22,429 bases of DNA from the IMG/VR virus record IMGVR_UViG_3300042475_004874, positions 1 to 22,429 of that record. One strand, 5' to 3'. The notes below the pieces were generated by a model that saw only the letters and a list, made by a program, of their open reading frames with translations, was not told the DNA's origin and made no database searches. Positions 663-21,904 of the stretch are shown here, piece after piece. Every line of letters begins with the position of its first letter. Position 1 is the first letter of the stretch. The position numbers were made by a program, and so were the translations under genes. This stretch comes from a virus.

Positions 663-1319
663 TCAACCAGTGGAATAGACGAATTTTTCAGCCTCAGTTT
701 GTTCTTGTTTCTTCACAATCTCTTGTGTTGGCTGTTGCATTTCTAGAATCTCTCGCGACTCTGTTAATGCTTTCATCTTCTTCAGATTCTTCTTGACTTT
801 TCTTTTTGCTTGATCAAGTTTAATTGGACTGACTTTATCAGTATACACAATTCCATTCAAATGATCTAATTCGTGTTGAACACAAACAGCAGTCAATCCA
901 TCAAACTCATGAATCACTTCTTGACCATACATTGCTTGAAACTTCACTTTGATATGATCGTATCTTGGAAGTTTCAGATATAGTCCAGGATATGATAAAC
1001 ATCCTTCAGAGTATTCAGATAATTTCTCTCCATGTTCAATAATTTCTGGATTGAACATTGTCCATATTCCATGTTCACCCATATTCACTACACAAATTTT
1101 ATGAGGTAGTCCTACTTGGTTGGCTGATAAACCAAGACCGCCGAGTTTCTGTAATGTTTCAGCCAGAGAGAACCCCAAATATTCTGATTCCTTTGGATCA
1201 TACTTTTTATGATCCCATGGAATTGTTGGTTGGCGAAGAATTGGATCGTAAAAGTCAACTAGTTTGAATATGCTATATTCAATCAAATCGCCTTTGTAAT
1301 ATTTGACCAATCTTTCCAT
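663..1319 (-). CDS. def: Peptide deformylase with N- and C-terminal extensions
   Basis: Removes the formyl group from the N-terminal Met of new proteins, using a metal ion in the cytoplasm. All three family motifs are present: GLGLSANQ at 61-68 (usual form GxGxAAxQ, here Ser for the first Ala), EGCLS at 105-109 (Cys metal ligand) and HELDH at 149-153 (two His ligands and the catalytic Glu). About 20 residues precede the usual start region (the normal beginning matches KLVDFYDPILR), and some 50 Lys/Gln/Glu-rich residues follow the catalytic core. No internal Met allows a shorter start, and AGGTGA precedes this ATG at good spacing, so the extension looks real. It starts 1 base after gp46 ends and is the last gene of the uvsY-to-46 run. 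Phage deformylases are known in marine T4-like phages and are thought to favour processing of phage or short-lived host proteins. Confidence 0.93.
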   Translation of the reverse strand: MERLVKYYKGDLIEYSIFKLVDFYDPILRQPTIPWDHKKYDPKESEYLGFSLAETLQKLGGLGLSANQVGLPHKICVVNMGEHGIWTMFNPEIIEHGEKLSEYSEGCLSYPGLYLKLPRYDHIKVKFQAMYGQEVIHEFDGLTAVCVQHELDHLNGIVYTDKVSPIKLDQAKRKVKKNLKKMKALTESREILEMQQPTQEIVKKQEQTEAEKFVYSTG

Positions 1320-1320
1320 T

Positions 1321-3027
1321 TTAAATCACCTGTGAGAAATTCTTCACTTTGCCAAATCGAATTGTGTGTTTAAATTTATCAACCATCTGATCAGTCTTGT
1401 GAGTGATCACAAAGATGTTTGTATTATCAGCAAACATATTTATCAACTTCATAAATTCTTCAGTGCCATTGATGTCAAGAGAACCATCAAAGACCTCGTC
1501 GAAGATGAGAAGATTGGTATTGACACTGTTCTTTAGTTTGGCGACCGACCTCCAAGTGAACAACAGTGCTAGATCAATACGTTTCTTTTCACCTTCTGAG
1601 AAATTTTCATAACTGAAATCATCTCGGTGACGAGACTTGATGGTCTCCTTGAACTCCTCGTCAATGTTGAAGTTGACAAAGAAGTCCATCGCAGCCAAAT
1701 ACTTATTTACCAGTTTGTTTATAACTGGCACGTACTGCTTAATGATTTTCGACTTAATCCCGCCATCTTTAAGCAACTGCGCGACAATATCATAATGTTG
1801 TGTTTGTTCAGATACCGTTTTTCTTTTTTCGTTAAATGCTTGTAATGCGTTGAGCAACTCTTTTGATTGTGCCTTGAACTCATCGCTCATGGCTGGTTTG
1901 CTTTCTATTTCACCAATTTCTTTTTCAAGTTTCGTAATATAGTTTCGAACCTGCTTGCGAGAAGTATTGATCCGCACAAGATCTTGCTCAAGAGTTTTGA
2001 GAGTTTGTTGGGTTGATTTAATTGTATTGATTCGACGTAGAACGGCATCACTCTCTTCCTTTAGTTTGTTTAGACCTTCGGTTAGTTCTGTGATTTTACT
2101 GTTGCATGTGTGTACTTTTTCGTCTTTGTTATTGATAGCCTGATCGCAGGTTGGACAAGTCGAATTTACAGAATAAAACTCGATGTCTTTCTCGAGTTTC
2201 TGAATATTCCCTTCAATCTTGGCTTCAAGTTGATTTAGTTTAGTGAATTTTTTACTGGTTGAATCGTCGTCTGATACTTCGGTTAGTAGATTTTCAATTT
2301 GAGTTTCTTTTTCAGTTGCTTCGATTTCAAGTGCTGAGAGTGATGCCGTGTTTTCAGTCACTTCTTGTTTCTTAGCGTCTACGATTTCCTTTGTATTCTT
2401 CTTGAGTTCGTCAAGATGTTTCTTGTGTAGTTCAATTTTATCACGTGTGTTATCAATTTGAATCTTGAGTTGCGCTGCTTCGTCTTTGAGTGTGTGTAGT
2501 TTACCTTTCACAATTACATTCATGGAAGAGAAGATCTGGATGTCAAGTAGATCTTCAATTACTGCACGACGATCCGATGCTGACAACTGCATGAATGGAG
2601 TGAAGTTGGTTGACCCTAGAATAACGATCTGCGTGAATGACTTATAGTTCATCTTGAGAATGATTTTTTCAAGATGATCCTGATAATCTTTTGCTCTTGC
2701 GTCTTGATTTAGTAATTCATCGTCGCAATAAATTTCAAAAACATTTGGTCGAATGCCACGAACAACTTTGTATGACTTCTTACCAATATCAAATTCAACT
2801 TCAACGAGACAATCTTTTTCGTTGACAGAATTTACGAGTTGTGGCTTATTGATATTGCGAAATGGTTTGCCAAACAATGAGAATGTAATAGCATCCAGGA
2901 ATGTGGATTTACCTGCACCATTTTCACCAACGATCAATGTCGTGGTGTTTTCATTCAATGAGATTTCAGTAAAAACATTTCCAGTAGAAAGGAAATTTTT
3001 ATAGCGAACTTTTTTAAATAAAATCAC
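1321..3027 (-). CDS. 46: gp46, Rad50/SbcC-like recombination ATPase subunit
   Basis: Large subunit of the T4-type Mre11-Rad50 complex, which resects DNA ends for recombination-dependent replication and host DNA breakdown. Visible parts in order: N-terminal Walker A GENGAGKST at 34-42; Q-loop region near 132-147; a long hydrophilic coiled-coil arm; zinc hook CPTC at 291-294 in the middle of the arm; a second coil; ABC signature FSEGEKKRIDLAL at 476-488; and Walker B NLLIFDEVFD at 505-514. Length is 568 residues against about 560 in T4. The start codon is GTG (3027-3025) and overlaps the gp47 stop as GTGA, with GGAG just upstream, so translation is probably coupled to its partner nuclease. Confidence 0.97.
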   Translation of the reverse strand: MILFKKVRYKNFLSTGNVFTEISLNENTTTLIVGENGAGKSTFLDAITFSLFGKPFRNINKPQLVNSVNEKDCLVEVEFDIGKKSYKVVRGIRPNVFEIYCDDELLNQDARAKDYQDHLEKIILKMNYKSFTQIVILGSTNFTPFMQLSASDRRAVIEDLLDIQIFSSMNVIVKGKLHTLKDEAAQLKIQIDNTRDKIELHKKHLDELKKNTKEIVDAKKQEVTENTASLSALEIEATEKETQIENLLTEVSDDDSTSKKFTKLNQLEAKIEGNIQKLEKDIEFYSVNSTCPTCDQAINNKDEKVHTCNSKITELTEGLNKLKEESDAVLRRINTIKSTQQTLKTLEQDLVRINTSRKQVRNYITKLEKEIGEIESKPAMSDEFKAQSKELLNALQAFNEKRKTVSEQTQHYDIVAQLLKDGGIKSKIIKQYVPVINKLVNKYLAAMDFFVNFNIDEEFKETIKSRHRDDFSYENFSEGEKKRIDLALLFTWRSVAKLKNSVNTNLLIFDEVFDGSLDINGTEEFMKLINMFADNTNIFVITHKTDQMVDKFKHTIRFGKVKNFSQVI

Positions 3028-4076
3028 GCTGTCTCCATAGACAATGCTTCGTTATATACATCACGCAATACTGTTTTGATTTTATCTGATTCTACAGGTA
3101 AAGTCAAGCCATCAACATACTTATTTAAGATTGTCATTGTGTCTTCTGCTTGGTCAATATCAACGTCAACGTTCTCTGTAATCTCAGAAAAGTCTTCAAC
3201 GACTGATACTTCCAACGGATTTACTTTTGCCAACGTATCTAGCAATGTATCAAACAAGAAAGAGTTATTGCGTTTCTCAACTACAATCTTAACATACTTG
3301 CTTGCAAGATGAGAATAATCTGCGTTCACAAGATCATTGTAGTATAACTCATCATCATTGTATTGGATCTTATAGAACATCTTCAACGGATTTTGAATAA
3401 ATTCTAATTGACGAGATTGAGTGTCGTAGATATGAAACCCACGATCATCATTATGATCTGCCCATGTCATTTCACCAGGAGTTCCAACGTACACAATACT
3501 GCCATTATTGCTTTTGTGATGAAAGTGGCCAGAAAGAACAAGATCATATTTTTGTAAGGTGGAGGGGTCCATACCTTCGTGGCAGATATTGCCACGATCC
3601 ATTTCGAATCCTTGCAACTCAAAGTGACCAAAGCAAACGCTGTTAGTACTGCGTTTGATAAAGTCCATGATTTCTAGTTCATTGTCTTTGCAGATCCAAG
3701 GAATGATATCAATACCATTCCACTCTGTTGCTTCATTATACACGACAACATTCGGATAATCTTTGAGCAATAACTCAGGCGAATTGACTTCTAAAGTATT
3801 CTTGAATGTAATGTCATGGTTGCCAAGCAACGTATGCATCTCTATATTATGTTCAGCCAGTTTATCAAAAAAGTAACGACGGCAAAGAGCAAGAGACTGA
3901 AAAGAGATATACTTCCGACGATCAAATAAGTCACCCAACTGAAAGATGGTGGTAATTCCATTTTGCACCAAATAAGGGAAAAAGTGTTTAGTATAAAACT
4001 CACGATAGTGATTATGGAAAGCGATACTATCGCCTCTCATACCAAAGTGAGTATCACCCAGGATTGCTATCTTCAT
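3024..4076 (-). CDS. 47: gp47, Mre11/SbcD-like recombination nuclease subunit
   Basis: Metallophosphoesterase that pairs with gp46 to process DNA ends. The metal-binding motifs are complete: GDTHFG with D8 and H10, GDLFD with D49, GNHD with N86 and H87, GHFEL with H151, and SGHFHH with H184 and H186. The length (350) is near that of T4 gp47 (339). The ATG lies inside the 3' end of gene 55 (23-base overlap) and the stop overlaps the GTG of gene 46. The order 55-47-46 is the one known from cyanophage-type T4 relatives. Confidence 0.97.
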   Translation of the reverse strand: MKIAILGDTHFGMRGDSIAFHNHYREFYTKHFFPYLVQNGITTIFQLGDLFDRRKYISFQSLALCRRYFFDKLAEHNIEMHTLLGNHDITFKNTLEVNSPELLLKDYPNVVVYNEATEWNGIDIIPWICKDNELEIMDFIKRSTNSVCFGHFELQGFEMDRGNICHEGMDPSTLQKYDLVLSGHFHHKSNNGSIVYVGTPGEMTWADHNDDRGFHIYDTQSRQLEFIQNPLKMFYKIQYNDDELYYNDLVNADYSHLASKYVKIVVEKRNNSFLFDTLLDTLAKVNPLEVSVVEDFSEITENVDVDIDQAEDTMTILNKYVDGLTLPVESDKIKTVLRDVYNEALSMETA

Positions 4077-4595: not shown

Positions 4596-5195
4596 TTAAC
4601 CAATATGTAACAGTTGTGAAATTGTAAATCTTGCATCTTCGGGGTTATCTGTTTTTAATTTGACTTCAGTCACCTCATGACGCACCACTGATGGAAAAAT
4701 AATTGTTGAATTATTTTCAAGTTTTGAATTATAGTTATAATCAGGAAATATCAATTCACCACCTTGATATTTTTTTGGTGTCTTATGAATTAACGTTACT
4801 GCCGTGAAAACTGCACTATCTTCATGAGGTTCGTAATAATCACCATTTCTATACGCTTGAACTAATGTGCATCCGTGATTAATGTGCTTGAACAATTGCA
4901 TATAAACATCTGAACTTTCTTTAGATGCATTTCTAACTCTCTCACTCACAGTTTTAGTCATGAACAATAAAATATCCGAATGTTCTTTGTTATTGAACAT
5001 TGAATCGATCATGATTCCGTAACCTTTCTTTCGAGGAATTCCACGCTCTCGTGTTGCAGCACTTGTTTGTTCAGGTGGAAGCATTTTTGGAACTAAAAAA
5101 ATCAACTCATTCCAAATCAATTGGAACTCTTTTGGGTCTAACAAATTATGTATTGTTATGTGGGGAAATGGATCACTAAAAATTTTAATGTTCAT
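4596..5195 (-). CDS. 2-oxoglutarate/Fe(II)-dependent oxygenase
   Basis: Prolyl-hydroxylase-like double-stranded beta-helix enzyme of 199 residues. The iron triad and 2-oxoglutarate site are intact: H124 and D126 in YEPHEDSAV, H173 in SVVRHEVTEV, and R189 in ARFTISQLL. GGELIFPDY at 145-153 is typical of the core strand. I start it at the ATG at 5195-5193 (MNIKIFSDPFPH), 4 bases after the upstream stop. The longer form starting at 5261 would overlap the neighbour by 62 bases and add 22 Lys/Arg-rich residues with no family match. Such oxygenases are frequent in marine T4-like phages; substrates proposed for relatives include proteins and nucleobases, and none is established here. It sits between uvsW and 55, so it is probably made with the replication/recombination genes. 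Confidence 0.9.
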   Translation of the reverse strand: MNIKIFSDPFPHITIHNLLDPKEFQLIWNELIFLVPKMLPPEQTSAATRERGIPRKKGYGIMIDSMFNNKEHSDILLFMTKTVSERVRNASKESSDVYMQLFKHINHGCTLVQAYRNGDYYEPHEDSAVFTAVTLIHKTPKKYQGGELIFPDYNYNSKLENNSTIIFPSVVRHEVTEVKLKTDNPEDARFTISQLLHIG

Positions 5196-5199
5196 AAAT

Positions 5200-5640
5200 T
5201 TAATGTACTGGTTTGTCTTTTTTATTTGCCATCGCTTCAAGAATAGAAACAACCTTCTCAACTGTTTCGGGATTATTGTCTAATCCCTTTGTTTTCTTTT
5301 TAACAGGCGTCTTTATGTTAGCAGTGTTGTTATAAAAGAAATCTGCAACGTATTCATATTGCTCAACAAATTCAGCACGAACTGGTGACGCAAATAACAC
5401 CTCGTAATCATCAAAATCTACTTCTTTTATTTCAATAACTGATTGAGGAAGGTACTCTTGCATTGCAAGAATTTGACGACCTTCATCAAATATAGTTTCA
5501 ATTTCAATTCTTAGAGGCAACTCTACTGTAATGTATCCTTCTTTATAAGTCACATATCCAATGATATCATCTGGAATTGAACGAAGGCGAACAAACTTGA
5601 GTTCGCCTCTTGGTTTATATTCTACTTTATCTTCAGACAT
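5200..5640 (-). CDS. Conserved-looking phage protein of unknown function, 146 residues
   Basis: Begins MSEDKVEYKPRGELKFVRLRSIPDD. Residues 14-95 alternate hydrophobic and polar positions and read like a small beta-rich domain: FVRLRSIPDDIIGYV, then ITVELPLRIEIETI, then VLFASPVRAEFVEQYEYVADFFY. The C-terminal 45 residues are Lys/Asn-rich and look flexible. An Sm-like or other small beta-barrel fold is only a guess. The ATG overlaps the uvsW stop codon as TAATG, with AAGGA upstream, so it is translationally coupled to the helicase. Position and coupling suggest a DNA- or RNA-related accessory role. I recall similar unnamed proteins at this place in cyanophage genomes but cannot confirm it. Confidence 0.8.
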   Translation of the reverse strand: MSEDKVEYKPRGELKFVRLRSIPDDIIGYVTYKEGYITVELPLRIEIETIFDEGRQILAMQEYLPQSVIEIKEVDFDDYEVLFASPVRAEFVEQYEYVADFFYNNTANIKTPVKKKTKGLDNNPETVEKVVSILEAMANKKDKPVH

Positions 5641-7666: not shown

Positions 7667-8215
7667 TTAAGAAAATAATCTCTCATAATCATAGTATGAG
7701 AATCTAAAAGATGCATCCGCAACAACAATATTTTCAGCAGTGTCTTGTGCGCTCATTAACAAAGATGATAAAGAAACTGGAAACAAATCAAACAATTTAA
7801 TTCTAAAGTTTGGATTATTTTTGTTTGTATGAAGAGTCATAATTGCTTCAGAGTATTGAACTCTAATGTTATCGCGATTTCGAATATATGGTGCTCTTGC
7901 TTGGCGTTCTAGATTGATATACTCTTTGAAATCAGTTGGGAATGTCAACCCACGAATCCAATCGTGAATTTCAGTCCAGTTACGCATATCTTCATCGACC
8001 AAGAAAGTAATATTGAACGTATCATACACCATTTTCTCACCTGGATGAAACAAATCTATAAATGGTGTTGGTCGAATAATTTCTGTAAGTGAAACTCCAG
8101 GAACGTTTGCTGCTTGGCAGTAATATGTTGCTCCAGGCAAACGATCAAACGTCACTCTAAATTTGGTACTTTGTAAGAGTGCTGTATTAGTCGGTGTTCT
8201 TGTGAGTGCTGTCAT
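7667..8215 (-). CDS. 3: Tail-tube-fold protein, probably gp3 (tail terminator / sheath stabilizer)
   Basis: 182 residues. The pattern FRVTFDRLPGATYYCQAANVPG, then PTPFIDLFHPGEK, then ITFLVDEDMRNWTEIHDW is the tube-protein pattern. It resembles gp19 of this same phage (FEVQINRLGPNFNFLCKAAQLPG and VTILNDEDFAIRNALEL), so the two are probably paralogues. Its place directly after gene 23 and before uvsY is where marine T4-like phages carry the gene annotated as 3, whose product caps the tail tube (T4 gp3 has 176 residues). The ribosome site AAGGGA precedes the ATG. It is separated from gene 23 by a strong terminator and has its own late-promoter motif. It could instead be a second tube protein; the tail role is firm, the exact name less so. 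Confidence 0.8.
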   Translation of the reverse strand: MTALTRTPTNTALLQSTKFRVTFDRLPGATYYCQAANVPGVSLTEIIRPTPFIDLFHPGEKMVYDTFNITFLVDEDMRNWTEIHDWIRGLTFPTDFKEYINLERQARAPYIRNRDNIRVQYSEAIMTLHTNKNNPNFRIKLFDLFPVSLSSLLMSAQDTAENIVVADASFRFSYYDYERLFS

Positions 8216-8325: not shown

Positions 8326-9663
8326 TTACTGGTTGATGTTCAACACTTGGAACTTACGATAGTACACGTTTGTGCCGTTTGAAAGAGCACCAGTGCCTGC
8401 TGCAGTTGCGAATGGGTTTGCAACGAGACCGTAACGAGTCTTGAAGCCAACTTTTGGTTGGTAAGTCGTTGGGTCGATTGCGCGTACCATTTGTAGTGGA
8501 ACGTATGGGCAGTAGAACAAGCCAGCGTCATAAGCGTTTGTACCCTTATAACCAACAACAACATAATCTGCATTAGATACAGAATATGGATCAACATAGA
8601 CCTTGATACGTCCGAAGAGTGTACCAGCGAATGTGTTGCCAGTATCATCAACTGTTAGGTTGGTGTTATTTGACAATGCTGAGTAGTAGTCTAGAAGACC
8701 TGTCATTGCTAGGGCTGATGCAACATCCGTTGATAGGATGAGGATGTTACCCTTACCGCGACGTGTGTCTTTAGCGATCTTGTTTGCTGCTCTTTCGATT
8801 GCGAACAAGAGTGACTTATACTTTTCTACCTGCCAACGACCTGATGTACCACCTGCAGTGGTGTCGCTTGAATTCAAGTTGAAGGTATTTGAAGTTACAC
8901 CGACGATGCCGACGTTAGCAGTTGCATAGATCGTACGAACAACTTCGCGGTTGATTTCAGCAAGAATTTCTGTTGACAAGATGTTTGTCAATTCTGTTTC
9001 TGCGTCGAGACCGTGGATTGCCTTTAGATCTTGTGCAAGTTCTAGCGTATATGCTGCTTGCAAGCCGCGTGTATTTGCTGTAACAGCAACGCGATCGATT
9101 TGGAAGCCCATGTTCTTCATCGTTAGGTCTTCACCAGCAGCGGTGTCGAGACCGAAGCCTGTGTTTGCTAGACCGTAGATTGATGAGTTAGCATTACCTG
9201 GATTTACTGCAGTGCTGAATGCAGTCATTGTACCGTTACCAGAGTGAGCGTTATTGGCTTCTTCGAAGAGAGCCTCGCCGCCACGTGCTGTTGAAGATGC
9301 ATAGACTGAGCGCATTGCGAAAATCAAACCTGTTGGACCAGTCATTGGCTGAACGCCGCAGATGTCATAAGCCATTAGGTTTGGAAGTGCGCGGCGAACG
9401 AGACCAATTAGGATTGGGTCGAAGCCTGTAACACCAGTGTTGACTGTTGAAGCAAGACCGCTTACGCCAGCTGAACCCATGGCATTAGCAGGTGATGCTT
9501 CCCATAGGTTGTGCATTGAGCGATTTTCTTCTTGGAGGGCGCGTTCTTGGTTTTCCAAAACAAGTGCAGTTACTGCGCGCTTGTATGGATCTGTGACTGA
9601 TGGAAGATCACCGTGATCAAGAACTGGAGCCCACTTTTTTACGAGCGTTTCATTTAGATACAT
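8326..9663 (-). CDS. 23: gp23, major capsid protein
   Basis: Forms the hexamers of the head (HK97-type fold). The hallmark block RRALPNLMAYDICGVQPM at 90-107 followed by GPTGLIFAMRSVY matches T4 gp23 closely. The precursor has 445 residues, shorter than T4 (521), as usual in marine relatives. A gp21 cleavage site of the type L-x-E is visible at NLWE/ASPA, between E55 and A56, close to the T4 site after residue 65, so about 390 residues would remain. The ATG follows GGAGA with good spacing, and the gene starts 31 bases after gene 22 ends. No separate late-promoter motif is visible in that gap, so it is probably read with gene 22, and it is followed by the strong terminator. Confidence 0.97.
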   Translation of the reverse strand: MYLNETLVKKWAPVLDHGDLPSVTDPYKRAVTALVLENQERALQEENRSMHNLWEASPANAMGSAGVSGLASTVNTGVTGFDPILIGLVRRALPNLMAYDICGVQPMTGPTGLIFAMRSVYASSTARGGEALFEEANNAHSGNGTMTAFSTAVNPGNANSSIYGLANTGFGLDTAAGEDLTMKNMGFQIDRVAVTANTRGLQAAYTLELAQDLKAIHGLDAETELTNILSTEILAEINREVVRTIYATANVGIVGVTSNTFNLNSSDTTAGGTSGRWQVEKYKSLLFAIERAANKIAKDTRRGKGNILILSTDVASALAMTGLLDYYSALSNNTNLTVDDTGNTFAGTLFGRIKVYVDPYSVSNADYVVVGYKGTNAYDAGLFYCPYVPLQMVRAIDPTTYQPKVGFKTRYGLVANPFATAAGTGALSNGTNVYYRKFQVLNINQ

Positions 9664-14890: not shown

Positions 14891-15400
14891 TTAGGTTGCG
14901 CTAGTATCTGAAGTCCAGTACTGGTATGCAAATGTCACTTGATATTCTTCAATTGTGTCGTTTGCGCCCCAATCTAGTTCAATTGGTGAAATATCGATTG
15001 GGAACATTCCTCTGAAGTTATACTCTTTGATAATTGCGCCAGTCTTTGAATATTGAGAAACTAGAGCATCAAATTGATAACCATCAGCAAGAACAGCAGC
15101 CAAGTTTTCTTCGTGACTATTAATGTCTTGCATCAACAACTCAAGAGCATTGCGAATTGCAAAGTCTTCATCGTTGAGAATCGTTACAGTCCAATCAGCG
15201 AACGTTCTATTTCCAGCGTACTTAACGTTACGACCGAAATATGGAACTTCAACTAATCCAACTGTTGATCCTGGCAACTGTGCTGCCTTACACAAGAAAT
15301 TGAAGTTTGGTCCTAATCTGTTGATTTGAACCTCAAACAGATTAGGACGTGCGCCATCACCAGTAAATGTAGAAGTGAATTCTGAAATATTAAATGGCAT
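14891..15400 (-). CDS. 19: gp19, tail tube protein
   Basis: Builds the inner tube through which DNA passes. 169 residues against 163 in T4. Blocks RPNLFEVQINRLGPNF, CKAAQLPGSTVGLVEVPYFGR and ADWTVTILNDEDF are typical, and the end EYQVTFAYQYWTSD is the usual last strand. It stands after the sheath gene as in all T4-like phages. The ribosome site AGGAG and an upstream late-promoter-like motif are present. It shares its fold with the gp3-like protein after gene 23. Confidence 0.95.
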   Translation of the reverse strand: MPFNISEFTSTFTGDGARPNLFEVQINRLGPNFNFLCKAAQLPGSTVGLVEVPYFGRNVKYAGNRTFADWTVTILNDEDFAIRNALELLMQDINSHEENLAAVLADGYQFDALVSQYSKTGAIIKEYNFRGMFPIDISPIELDWGANDTIEEYQVTFAYQYWTSDTSAT

Positions 15401-18853: not shown

Positions 18854-19253
18854 TCTTTAATTGTCGCAATAATTCAGCAGTGCTTCCAACGAAGATTGCT
18901 TTGTCTACATTCACATTCGTTGGTGCTGTTTGTTCTTCAGGACCACGCAATTCTTTTTGCTGCTTTTGTAAGATCATCAACTTCTCTGTCACATCAGAGA
19001 GATTCTTGATCATATTTGCTGCTACTTCATACGCTCTTGGGTGTTGCGATTCTTTTGCCACTTCAAGAATGCCGTCCAGAGCTTCGTTACCCTTCTCGAT
19101 AAGGTTGTAATAATTAGAACGAGAATAGTCAGCGTCAGGATTAACGCTTGAGTCGTTTGATCCATGAATAGTAACACTTTTATTGCCCTCGCTCATCACA
19201 GGAACATAATCAGTGTTTAAAATTTCTGCTAGATTTTTATCTACTTCACTCAT
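18834..19253 (-). CDS. 16: gp16, small terminase subunit
   Basis: Recognises DNA and regulates gp17. 139 residues (T4 164). The middle (about 47-103, NLIEKGNEALDGILEVAK through MIKNLSDVTEKLMILQKQQKEL) is a long helical, coiled-coil-like region that forms the ring core in T4 gp16. The N-terminus is acidic and Ser/Asn-rich; the C-terminus (FVGSTAELLRQLKN) is a short helix. The ATG overlaps the gene 15 stop as ATGA and the end overlaps gene 17. Confidence 0.93.
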   Translation of the reverse strand: MSEVDKNLAEILNTDYVPVMSEGNKSVTIHGSNDSSVNPDADYSRSNYYNLIEKGNEALDGILEVAKESQHPRAYEVAANMIKNLSDVTEKLMILQKQQKELRGPEEQTAPTNVNVDKAIFVGSTAELLRQLKNESNSG

Positions 19254-20254
19254 GTAATATTTGGTGCTTCTTGTAATATCTCATCAAATCCAAATGCAGT
19301 ATTTGCATTTGCTGTTGTTGGGTCTGGAGTTACTTGTAATTTTGTTAACTGATAATCGTTAGTTCCAAAACTTGAAATGTTATACGATGCGTTTGATAAT
19401 GCACCTGTCAAAAATCTTCCATCTTTGAGTATGCCCTTTTGATCAGAAACATACAAAACAAGAGCCTCAGAGTCCCAAGCATCAACATAGGCTGTTGCAT
19501 TTGCTGAAGTTATTGTTCGCCCCTCATAAACCAACTCACCAGAACGAAATGTTCCTTGACCACCTGTATTAGCAAAATACACAACTCTTTGATCTTCAGG
19601 AGTTGTAACCATTGCATATGTATTTGCTGTAACTTTTCGGATTACATCAACAGAAGCAATAGGTCCATACATATAACCTTTTACTGTAAATGAAAGCGTC
19701 CATGTCAACATACGAAGATTATCAGGTGAGCCAACATCATCAACGTTATAATTTACACTTTGCAAAATAAAAGGTACATCGATTTTTTGATCTGATAAAC
19801 CAATAATATCTAATGACAAGTTTAAATCTGGATTGAAATATGGTAGAATTTGTTCGACGATTTGAGTGCCATCCTCAACATTGCGAACATAAATGTTTAA
19901 TTCAAAATTAAAATCATATGGAACTGCACGTATTGCTTTTATCGTTTGACCAGATTCTGGTGAATAACTTTCAGCGTATAGATTTCTTTTTCTTAGTGGA
20001 TCATAATTAATCGCAGTAAGTTCAAAACTCATACGTGGCAATGTCATTTGAACTTCTTTTGTTAACTCAGGATCTTGTGTGATGCGCGCATAAAATTTTT
20101 CTTTTTGCGCATACTGCAATGGAACAATAATTCTTTCGATCTCTTGAGTTCCCGCTTTATTGTATCTTACAAGACGAATGTTATTAAAGATTGTGCCAAA
20201 TGACACAACCATTTTTCTTACAATTCTATGATAAAAATGTGTATTTGAAAGCAT
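19250..20254 (-). CDS. 15: gp15, tail sheath stabilizer / tail completion protein
   Basis: Caps the sheath end of the tail and joins it to the head neck. 334 residues, about 60 longer than T4 gp15 (272). The first 200 residues match the family: NTHFYHRIVRKMVVSFGTIFNNI, IVPLQYAQKEKFYARI, and LPRMSFELTAINYDP. The extra length lies in the C-terminal part: residues 232-296 align without gaps to 194-258 of gp14 in the next gene (17 identical of 65), and this segment looks like an added beta-rich domain. Its ATG overlaps the gene 14 stop (TAATG). Confidence 0.95.
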   Translation of the reverse strand: MLSNTHFYHRIVRKMVVSFGTIFNNIRLVRYNKAGTQEIERIIVPLQYAQKEKFYARITQDPELTKEVQMTLPRMSFELTAINYDPLRKRNLYAESYSPESGQTIKAIRAVPYDFNFELNIYVRNVEDGTQIVEQILPYFNPDLNLSLDIIGLSDQKIDVPFILQSVNYNVDDVGSPDNLRMLTWTLSFTVKGYMYGPIASVDVIRKVTANTYAMVTTPEDQRVVYFANTGGQGTFRSGELVYEGRTITSANATAYVDAWDSEALVLYVSDQKGILKDGRFLTGALSNASYNISSFGTNDYQLTKLQVTPDPTTANANTAFGFDEILQEAPNIT

Positions 20255-21141
20255 TATGGTTCACCAAATGGATTGACTTCAGTAAAGTCAATAATATTAT
20301 CAGCCTCTGTTTCAATTCTAGAATTGTCATCCATTGATTCAAGATTAACATTCACCATCAAATCAGGAACAGTGTTCATTGTCCACTGAGCGTTACTTGA
20401 ATTACCTTTGATAATTGTATTATTTGCAAATTCACCACGAATATTTCTCAAATATAATGTTCCACTTGGTTTGTCCCATGCAGAAACAATTCCACGACAA
20501 GTTGAACTTGCTAGATTTGCACCTTGGAATGCCCATTCATACAAAGTAAATGATCCATTACCACCAGGAGCAACTTTGTATTCAATGTTAACTGCTTGTT
20601 TGTTTGCAATTCTATCAATTTCATCCATGCCAGTATCAAGTAATTCACCATTATACTTGAAGGCTTCAACAGTTAATCCATACATGTATGGATTTCTGGC
20701 GTCTTTACCTAATTGGAAGAAGTTTTTTTCTTCTGCAACAAATTTAATCTCCATTAGTTTGTATTGAACTGGAAGATAAATTAAATCGCCTTCTTTTGGA
20801 ACATTATGAGTATCGCCCATTGTAGAAAAAACATATTTTTCAAACGAGCGGCGTGACATTACAAGCCTTGCAGTTTCTTGAATTTCTAATCCAAACTTAC
20901 TGAAAAATTCTTTATTGCCCTCATAATCTCTAACTGATTCAAGATACATCTCAATTTTGATTGCATGCGAGAAATACTTAACTGGATCGTCACCAAATAA
21001 TTCATCAGTAGAGGATTGTGAATCTCTTGGAATATAATAAACATCAATTCCGTGATTCTTGATTGATTCGATGATCAAATCTTCTAGCAAAAACTGTTCA
21101 GTTTTTGCAGCTTGATTGTTAAAATATACGCTAGTTGCCAT
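20254..21141 (-). CDS. 14: gp14, neck protein
   Basis: Part of the neck that seals the filled head and takes up the tail. 295 residues (T4 256). Typical blocks are IESIKNHGIDVYYIPRD near the N-terminus, LVMSRRSFEKY, and PKEGDLIYLPVQYKLMEIKFVAEEKNFFQLGK. Residues 194-258 form a beta-like segment also present in gp15. It starts one base after gene 13 ends, with AGGA at good spacing. The C-terminus is acidic (EADNIIDFTEVNPFGEP). Confidence 0.95.
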   Translation of the reverse strand: MATSVYFNNQAAKTEQFLLEDLIIESIKNHGIDVYYIPRDSQSSTDELFGDDPVKYFSHAIKIEMYLESVRDYEGNKEFFSKFGLEIQETARLVMSRRSFEKYVFSTMGDTHNVPKEGDLIYLPVQYKLMEIKFVAEEKNFFQLGKDARNPYMYGLTVEAFKYNGELLDTGMDEIDRIANKQAVNIEYKVAPGGNGSFTLYEWAFQGANLASSTCRGIVSAWDKPSGTLYLRNIRGEFANNTIIKGNSSNAQWTMNTVPDLMVNVNLESMDDNSRIETEADNIIDFTEVNPFGEP

Positions 21142-21142
21142 T

Positions 21143-21904
21143 TTATCCTACTAAGAATGGCACTGGTTCTTCGAAAGTGTCTCGGAGTTTTTCTTCAAGA
21201 CGTTCGATTTCTACAGATGCTTCATCCCAAATTTTTTGACCATTGATTGTAAGACCACCAGGAAGAACATAATTATCATATTTCTTCAAGTTTTCACCCC
21301 ACTGTCTCTTAAACAATTGAGCCGTGTATTCCTTTAACCAACTATCGTTGAAAACTTTATAATAACAATCTGGATCTACAATTCTAAAACATTCAAATAC
21401 CATAAAATTGCCTGGATCAAATCGTCTGTCCATCTCAATTTGAAGGTACAAACGATTGGTCTTTTTATTAAATGTGTAAGGATATTCGCCTGTGATAATC
21501 ATGTCGAGCATTGAAAGATGCTCACGCGCGATCACATAATAGGTATATGAAGAAGAAGTTAGATTGTAAAAATCATTTAAACGAAGCTGATAATTAATAT
21601 CAAAAATGTTAAATCCAGCTGAAGAAGTTGAAGATTGAGTCGATCCTGTATACGGAAATACCTTCGAAACTCCGATGATGGAATCAGGAAGTTGAATATA
21701 TTTGTTTTGAATGTCACCTGCTGTTAATTTGTGAGCAAGCCACGTTCTTTCGGTTCCGTCGAAATGATAGTCTCGAAATCTCTGTAAAGCATCATCGATG
21801 CGATCGTCTAACTGATCATCATCGACGTTGATGTCAATAACTGGAAACCCGAGTTTACGGAGACAAAAATCTTTTAGTTCTGTTCTGGAAGAAGGTTGCG
21901 CCAT
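21143..21904 (-). CDS. 13: gp13, neck protein
   Basis: Connector protein that works with gp14 after packaging. 253 residues (T4 309). The N-terminal block SRTELKDFCLRKLGFPVIDINVDDDQLDDRIDDALQRFRDYHFDG is characteristic of gp13 in marine T4-like phages, as is REHLSMLDMIITGEYPYTFNKK in the middle. The C-terminal 70 residues are helical and rich in charged residues. The ribosome site GAGAGG lies upstream, together with a late-promoter-like motif at the stop of the previous gene. Confidence 0.93.
   Translation of the reverse strand: MAQPSSRTELKDFCLRKLGFPVIDINVDDDQLDDRIDDALQRFRDYHFDGTERTWLAHKLTAGDIQNKYIQLPDSIIGVSKVFPYTGSTQSSTSSAGFNIFDINYQLRLNDFYNLTSSSYTYYVIAREHLSMLDMIITGEYPYTFNKKTNRLYLQIEMDRRFDPGNFMVFECFRIVDPDCYYKVFNDSWLKEYTAQLFKRQWGENLKKYDNYVLPGGLTINGQKIWDEASVEIERLEEKLRDTFEEPVPFLVG

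Follow-up and report, generated by a model that had tools for sequence, protein, structure and literature searches.

A plug-in module shared by the neck protein gp14 and the tail terminator gp15 of a T4-like phage, with further copies in baseplate proteins of its relatives

In this study, we found that two neighbouring virion proteins of a T4-like phage, the neck protein gp14 and the tail terminator gp15, carry homologous segments (gp14 residues 194-258 and gp15 residues 232-296), and that this segment is a plug-in module, since the gp15 of some relatives exists without it. In the account that we prefer, the modules form a plug-in family that would have entered gp14 first, would have been gained once by gp15, and would augment the joint between head and tail. 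We give this account as a whole a probability of about 0.5.

The window analysed here is the whole stretch of 22,429 nucleotides, positions 1-22,429 of IMGVR_UViG_3300042475_004874, and its numbering is used throughout. Its minus strand carries part of a T4-like phage structural gene block, in which genes 13, 14 and 15 follow one another in the T4 order. The features concerned are the following.

21143-21904, minus strand: gene 13, the neighbour of gene 14.
20254..21141, minus strand: gene 14, neck protein or head closure protein gp14, 295 aa (PF11649, E 7.8e-32, residues 5-187; phrog_460, E 4.6e-76).
20368..20562, minus strand: shared module of gp14, residues 194-258 (agreement with the gp15 copy in BLASTP, profiles and models; domain profile match).
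20257..20367, minus strand: C-terminal arm of gp14, residues 259-295, with a terminal conserved NPFG motif (gp14 alignment).
19250..20254, minus strand: gene 15, tail terminator or sheath stabiliser gp15, 334 aa (PF16724, E 7e-65, residues 6-221).
19367..19561, minus strand: shared module of gp15, residues 232-296 (agreement with the gp14 copy in BLASTP, profiles and models; domain profile match).
19253..19366, minus strand: C-terminal arm of gp15, residues 297-334, with the motif PDPxTANxxxxFGF (gp15 alignment and slot comparison).

Both carriers belong to their T4-type families, gp14 to PF11649 (head closure Hc2) and gp15 to PF16724 (tail terminator), as indicated by the profile matches of their cores and by the core folds in AlphaFold2 models of the full-length proteins, each built from its own alignment. 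The core of the gp14 model matched T4 gp14 (9lu7) with Z 11.8, rmsd 4.2 and 123 aligned residues, and that of the gp15 model matched T4 gp15 (4huh) with Z 14.5, rmsd 4.2 and 169 aligned residues. The PF11649 and PF16724 matches stop short of the C-terminal parts that hold the modules.

Elsewhere, the window holds two different tail-tube genes (gp19-type, phrog_45) at 7667-8215 and 14891-15400 (minus strand). One follows the sheath gene, its usual position, and the other lies downstream of a 445-aa protein at 8326-9663 that looks like a putative major capsid protein. A peptide deformylase (663-1319, minus strand, phrog_2890) and a 2OG-Fe(II) oxygenase (4596-5261, minus strand, phrog_61) are host-type genes, which are frequent in phages.

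The original prediction gave the coordinates, lengths and residue numbers of both segments correctly, and its gapless alignment of 65 residues with 17 identities was exact on recount. As the identities are just 17 of 65, chance resemblance between two beta-rich segments has to be weighed as an explanation. BLASTP of the gp14 segment against the gp15 segment gave E 5e-10. The top ungapped score between whole gp14 and whole gp15 was 95 and lay on the module diagonal (gp14 residues 186-257), while 200 shuffles gave a mean of 32.6 (SD 4.4) and a maximum of 50. At the DNA level the segments are identical at 89 of 195 bases, compared with 56.3 +/- 6.3 (maximum 77) when codons were shuffled. The claim had been said to fall if family profiles of the two segments gave no significant score; in hhalign, an 18-sequence gp14 profile and a 17-sequence gp15 profile matched over 64 of 65 columns with a probability of 99.1 and E 4e-19, which is significant.

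Searches between the two proteins agreed with this result. A profile of gp14 copies alone found the gp15 of the window at 8e-12, and the reverse search gave 9e-10. Against shuffled (20-fold) and reversed proteins, the only match of these separate profiles at 0.01 was one shuffled protein (0.009, gp15 profile), and the combined module profile had no match to such controls at 0.01. On the window, the module profile gave E 2.4e-29 for gp14 and 7.4e-29 for gp15 in one search, and 5.4e-28 and 1.7e-27 in the search run with the controls. With the combined profile, gp8 reached 6.6e-17 and gp53 6.9e-14, and the copies of the window and of the baseplate all scored above the controls. Five positions of the module (E9, G14, V26, L36 and G53) are invariant in an alignment of 34 rows. 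Compared with T4, in which gp14 has 256 aa and gp15 has 272 aa, the proteins of the window are longer by 39 and 62 residues, as had been claimed. Taken together, the shuffle test, the profile comparison, the search controls and the matching models contradict a chance similarity, which we regard as excluded for practical purposes.

The structure predictions pointed in the same direction. The confidence of the whole models was modest (mean pLDDT 64.5 for gp14 and 65.5 for gp15) but higher in the segments, where most ten-residue blocks had pLDDT values of about 73-89 for gp14 and of 81-91 for gp15. The two modules were compared through the positions of their strands, which were modelled at residues 203-206, 215-223, 228-235, 243-246 and 252-256 in gp14 and at 241-244, 253-261, 266-274, 281-284 and 290-296 in gp15. 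Equivalent strands start 38 residues apart, which is the offset of the sequence alignment, so that two separately predicted models place five strands in matching positions and bear out the beta-rich character proposed for the segment. The predicted module comprises five or six short strands within 65-75 residues; in our reading it may be a small closed barrel, a candidate rather than a proven fold. Structure searches with both models returned lists dominated by the protein cores, and the module itself gave weak matches to EF-Tu domain III (2c78; Z 5.2, rmsd 2.6, 64 aligned) and to T-protein (1woo; Z 4.9, rmsd 3.0, 68 aligned). The module matched no Ig domain in sequence searches of Pfam and PDB. 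WD40 propellers were considered as relatives and set aside, their weak sequence matches being at chance level.

In both proteins, the module occupies a slot between the conserved T4-type core and the C-terminal arm. Its proposed add-on character is confirmed by relatives in which it is cleanly missing from gp15, namely L126, L129, L130, L057 and the cyanophages. In L126, L129 and L130, which belong to the clade of the window, the gp15 core runs directly into the conserved arm. No module was found in gp7, gp8, gp13, gp14, gp15 or gp53 of T4. On the other side, gp14 carried the module in all eight cyanophage-type records examined (including S-SM1, Syn1 and S-SZBM1), and cyanophage gp15 is without it. 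Among the loci in which both genes were read, the module was present in both proteins in 71 and in gp14 alone in 36; 21 had no copy in either protein, and a copy in gp15 without one in gp14 was never seen. Near-identical contigs are among these loci, which means that the counts are not independent.

The slot can also hold other sequences. The gp15 proteins of S-CAM9 (L062:2504-3583) and Bellamy (L063:2492-3493) fill the same slot with another insert, about 65-80 residues long, which a Pfam search did not recognise and which is also present in relatives from metagenomes (L146 and L174, for example). In gp14, G-Y-rich beta repeats are nested in the first part of the module in L059:2501-3625, L062:514-2487, L063:1000-2451 and L064, giving proteins of 374-657 aa in the three annotated cyanophage-type phages (L059, L062 and L063). 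From the varied gp15 inserts and the nested gp14 repeats, the place where the core meets the C-terminal arm seems to be an insert-tolerant site. The arm motif PDPxTANxxxxFGF of gp15 is conserved in most relatives, whether the module is present or absent. The C-terminus of gp14 is an NPFG-type motif in the window and in cyanophages, with a comparable SPFD in T4, regardless of the preceding sequence, which suggests that this end is a docking peptide. In one relative (L042:2902-3911), gp15 is split into two overlapping frames (2902-3399 and 3348-3911), through a frameshift or an assembly error.

It had been proposed that two neighbouring neck and tail proteins carry the same add-on. Both do carry a homologous module, but the statement was too narrow, since copies also occur in gp7, gp8, gp53, another large protein and cyanophage gp14. 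The suggested search of further virion proteins found only the gp14 and gp15 copies in the window, within which no gp7, gp8 or gp53 gene was recognised. Additional copies were found when the module profile was run on larger contigs of the window's clade, so that the add-on occurs in gp14, gp15 and several virion proteins unrelated to them.

Related contigs: copy in the baseplate wedge protein gp53 (carrier identified by PF11246).
Related contigs: copy in the baseplate wedge protein gp8 (carrier identified by PF09215 and phrog_438).
Related contigs: copy in the baseplate wedge protein gp7 (carrier identified by phrog_17744).
Related contigs: copy in an unassigned protein of about 1060 aa (carrier matching phrog_358 and phrog_877).

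Several known systems can be compared with this family. The C-terminal region of gp14 in cyanophages (Kyanoviridae), which lies within phrog_460 (head closure Hc2), has the same module in the same protein and the same place. The module profile matched the eight cyanophage-type records with E values between 8.8e-12 and 7.2e-7, and its strongest matches were full length. Cyanophages differ in their gp15, which has no module, and in the extra repeats nested in the module of several gp14 proteins. Cyanophages also have large structural proteins of the virion (phrog_701, phrog_18802 and phrog_4406) in which homology is detectable across the whole module. A large protein of S-SM1 matched the module profile with E 2.3e-15, and the gp15 segment of the window matched phrog_701 with E 1.7e-5. 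These proteins differ in that they run to thousands of residues and contain the module as one part among many. T4 gp14 and gp15 have cores clearly homologous to those of the window, and in T4 it is through their C-terminal regions that head and tail make contact (PMC12270204), but neither has the module. The Ig-like and BACON add-on domains of phages are likewise small, beta-rich and reused across virion proteins (PMC6949934, PMC10684548), but we found no sequence link between them and the module.

In a tree of 54 copies (65 columns), the module sequences grouped by carrier protein. The copies of gp14, gp7, cyanophage gp14 and the unassigned protein formed one group each with starred support, and those of gp8 were grouped with 86/75. 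The gp15 copies fell together except that of L052, and an enforced gp15 group was not rejected (p-AU 0.48). Since genes 14 and 15 are adjacent, the pair could be thought to have arisen recently, by a local duplication or by gene conversion from one gene to the other, and a single clade of gp14 and gp15 copies was also not rejected (p-AU 0.502). However, copies from the same genome were 31.0% similar and copies from different genomes 31.4% (permutation p 0.51), which indicates that the pair is old, and the same-genome comparison showed no trace of gene conversion. The gp14 profile gave gp8 a better score than gp15, and for the gp15 profile both gp8 and gp53 outscored gp14, so that neither profile places the other protein first. 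These similarities and rankings argue against recent copying between the two genes, and we consider it highly improbable. The gp14 copy of L004 was checked as a gp14/gp15 recombinant, as it is partly gp15-like, yet its first half is nearer to other gp14 copies (67% vs 57%), so we make no case for recombination. An ancient copying from gp14 into gp15 is possible.

The distribution of the module in gp15 bears on its gain. We built a tree of 92 gp15 cores. One group of 41 rows, with support of 100/100, contains every one of the 36 module-bearing rows, and the module is absent from the other 51. Within this clade, 36 of the 41 rows have thus kept it, with few members lacking a copy; a recognisable copy is absent from L163, and L119 has a divergent insert, perhaps a degraded copy, perhaps a sequence of another kind. 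The pattern is most simply read as a single gain in gp15 with a few later losses, and, as the gp15 tree is unrooted, the single gain is what we infer rather than read from it. We suggest that gp14 acquired the module first, and that gp15 would then have received one copy from some virion gene, near the base of the window's clade.

In T4, residues 178-256 of gp14 are disordered before tail attachment, and in the virion they make extensive contacts with residues 203-245 of gp15 (PMC12270204). Our profile alignments indicated that the gp14 and gp15 modules begin inside the stretches that match these contact regions, which makes strengthening or spacing of the head-tail joint, judged by position only, the likeliest and best-supported role. 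The "interface domain" of the original prediction appears to fit the T4 structural data (PMC12270204). Six gp14 and six gp15 copies would surround the joint, where the equivalents of the T4 regions grip each other, and their contact surface would strengthen or space it. Because gp14 has retained its copy in phages whose gp15 has none, contact between the two copies need not occur, and an obligatory pairing of the modules is unlikely. The T4 neck is plugged by a ring of host Hfq (PMC12270204); a replacement of this ring by six gp14 barrels was considered and not adopted, position being its sole support.

Since copies also sit in baseplate proteins, at a distance from the neck, the module is not peculiar to the head-tail joint, and in the baseplate it may likewise act between wedge proteins. 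A general assembly connector, in which copies in at least six tail proteins pack on one another or on common partners in an extra network absent from T4, seems to us rather improbable; if it were true, this network would lock head to tail and wedge to wedge. We see a somewhat better, still minor chance that the modules point away from neck and baseplate to bind an outside partner, for example glycans on the host surface or the tail fibres of the phage itself when these are folded back. In T4, the long tail fibres meet the baseplate as well as the neck. Their contact with the neck (PMC12270204) and the reuse of the module in unrelated virion proteins, which resembles that of Ig-like and BACON domains (PMC6949934), agree with such a decoration, and an outward binding role has been proposed for the Ig-like add-on domains of phages (PMC6949934). 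However, the module sits in the stretch that forms the gp14-gp15 contact in T4, and sequence searches of Pfam and PDB matched it to no known binding domain. Slightly less probable is a neutral spacer, a passenger that has no specific job and is tolerated by the core-to-arm linker. The unrelated inserts in the same slot of other gp15 proteins, the repeats nested in several cyanophage gp14 modules and the missing gp15 copy in a few clade members would suit it, but its retention in most rows of the gp15 clade and its five invariant positions in the 34-row alignment speak against it. We keep augmentation of the head-tail joint as the preferred role.

Domain sharing among phage virion proteins is already well described (PMC10684548). 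For this module, Pfam has no entry as a domain of its own, a PDB sequence search gave no relative, PHROGs contain it solely inside larger profiles, and a literature search that covered few subscription papers found no description of it. These T4-like phages seem to reuse one snap-in part across their neck and baseplate proteins. The finding defines a mobile virion domain that recurs in T4-like phages widespread in metagenomes, in their neck proteins, tail terminators and baseplate proteins, and helps to explain why neck proteins vary in length (gp14 has 256 aa in T4 and 657 aa in S-CAM9). It also calls for caution about false family links among gp14, gp8 and giant structural proteins that have just the module in common, and it offers a testable idea on how the conserved head-tail joint of T4 may be remodelled.
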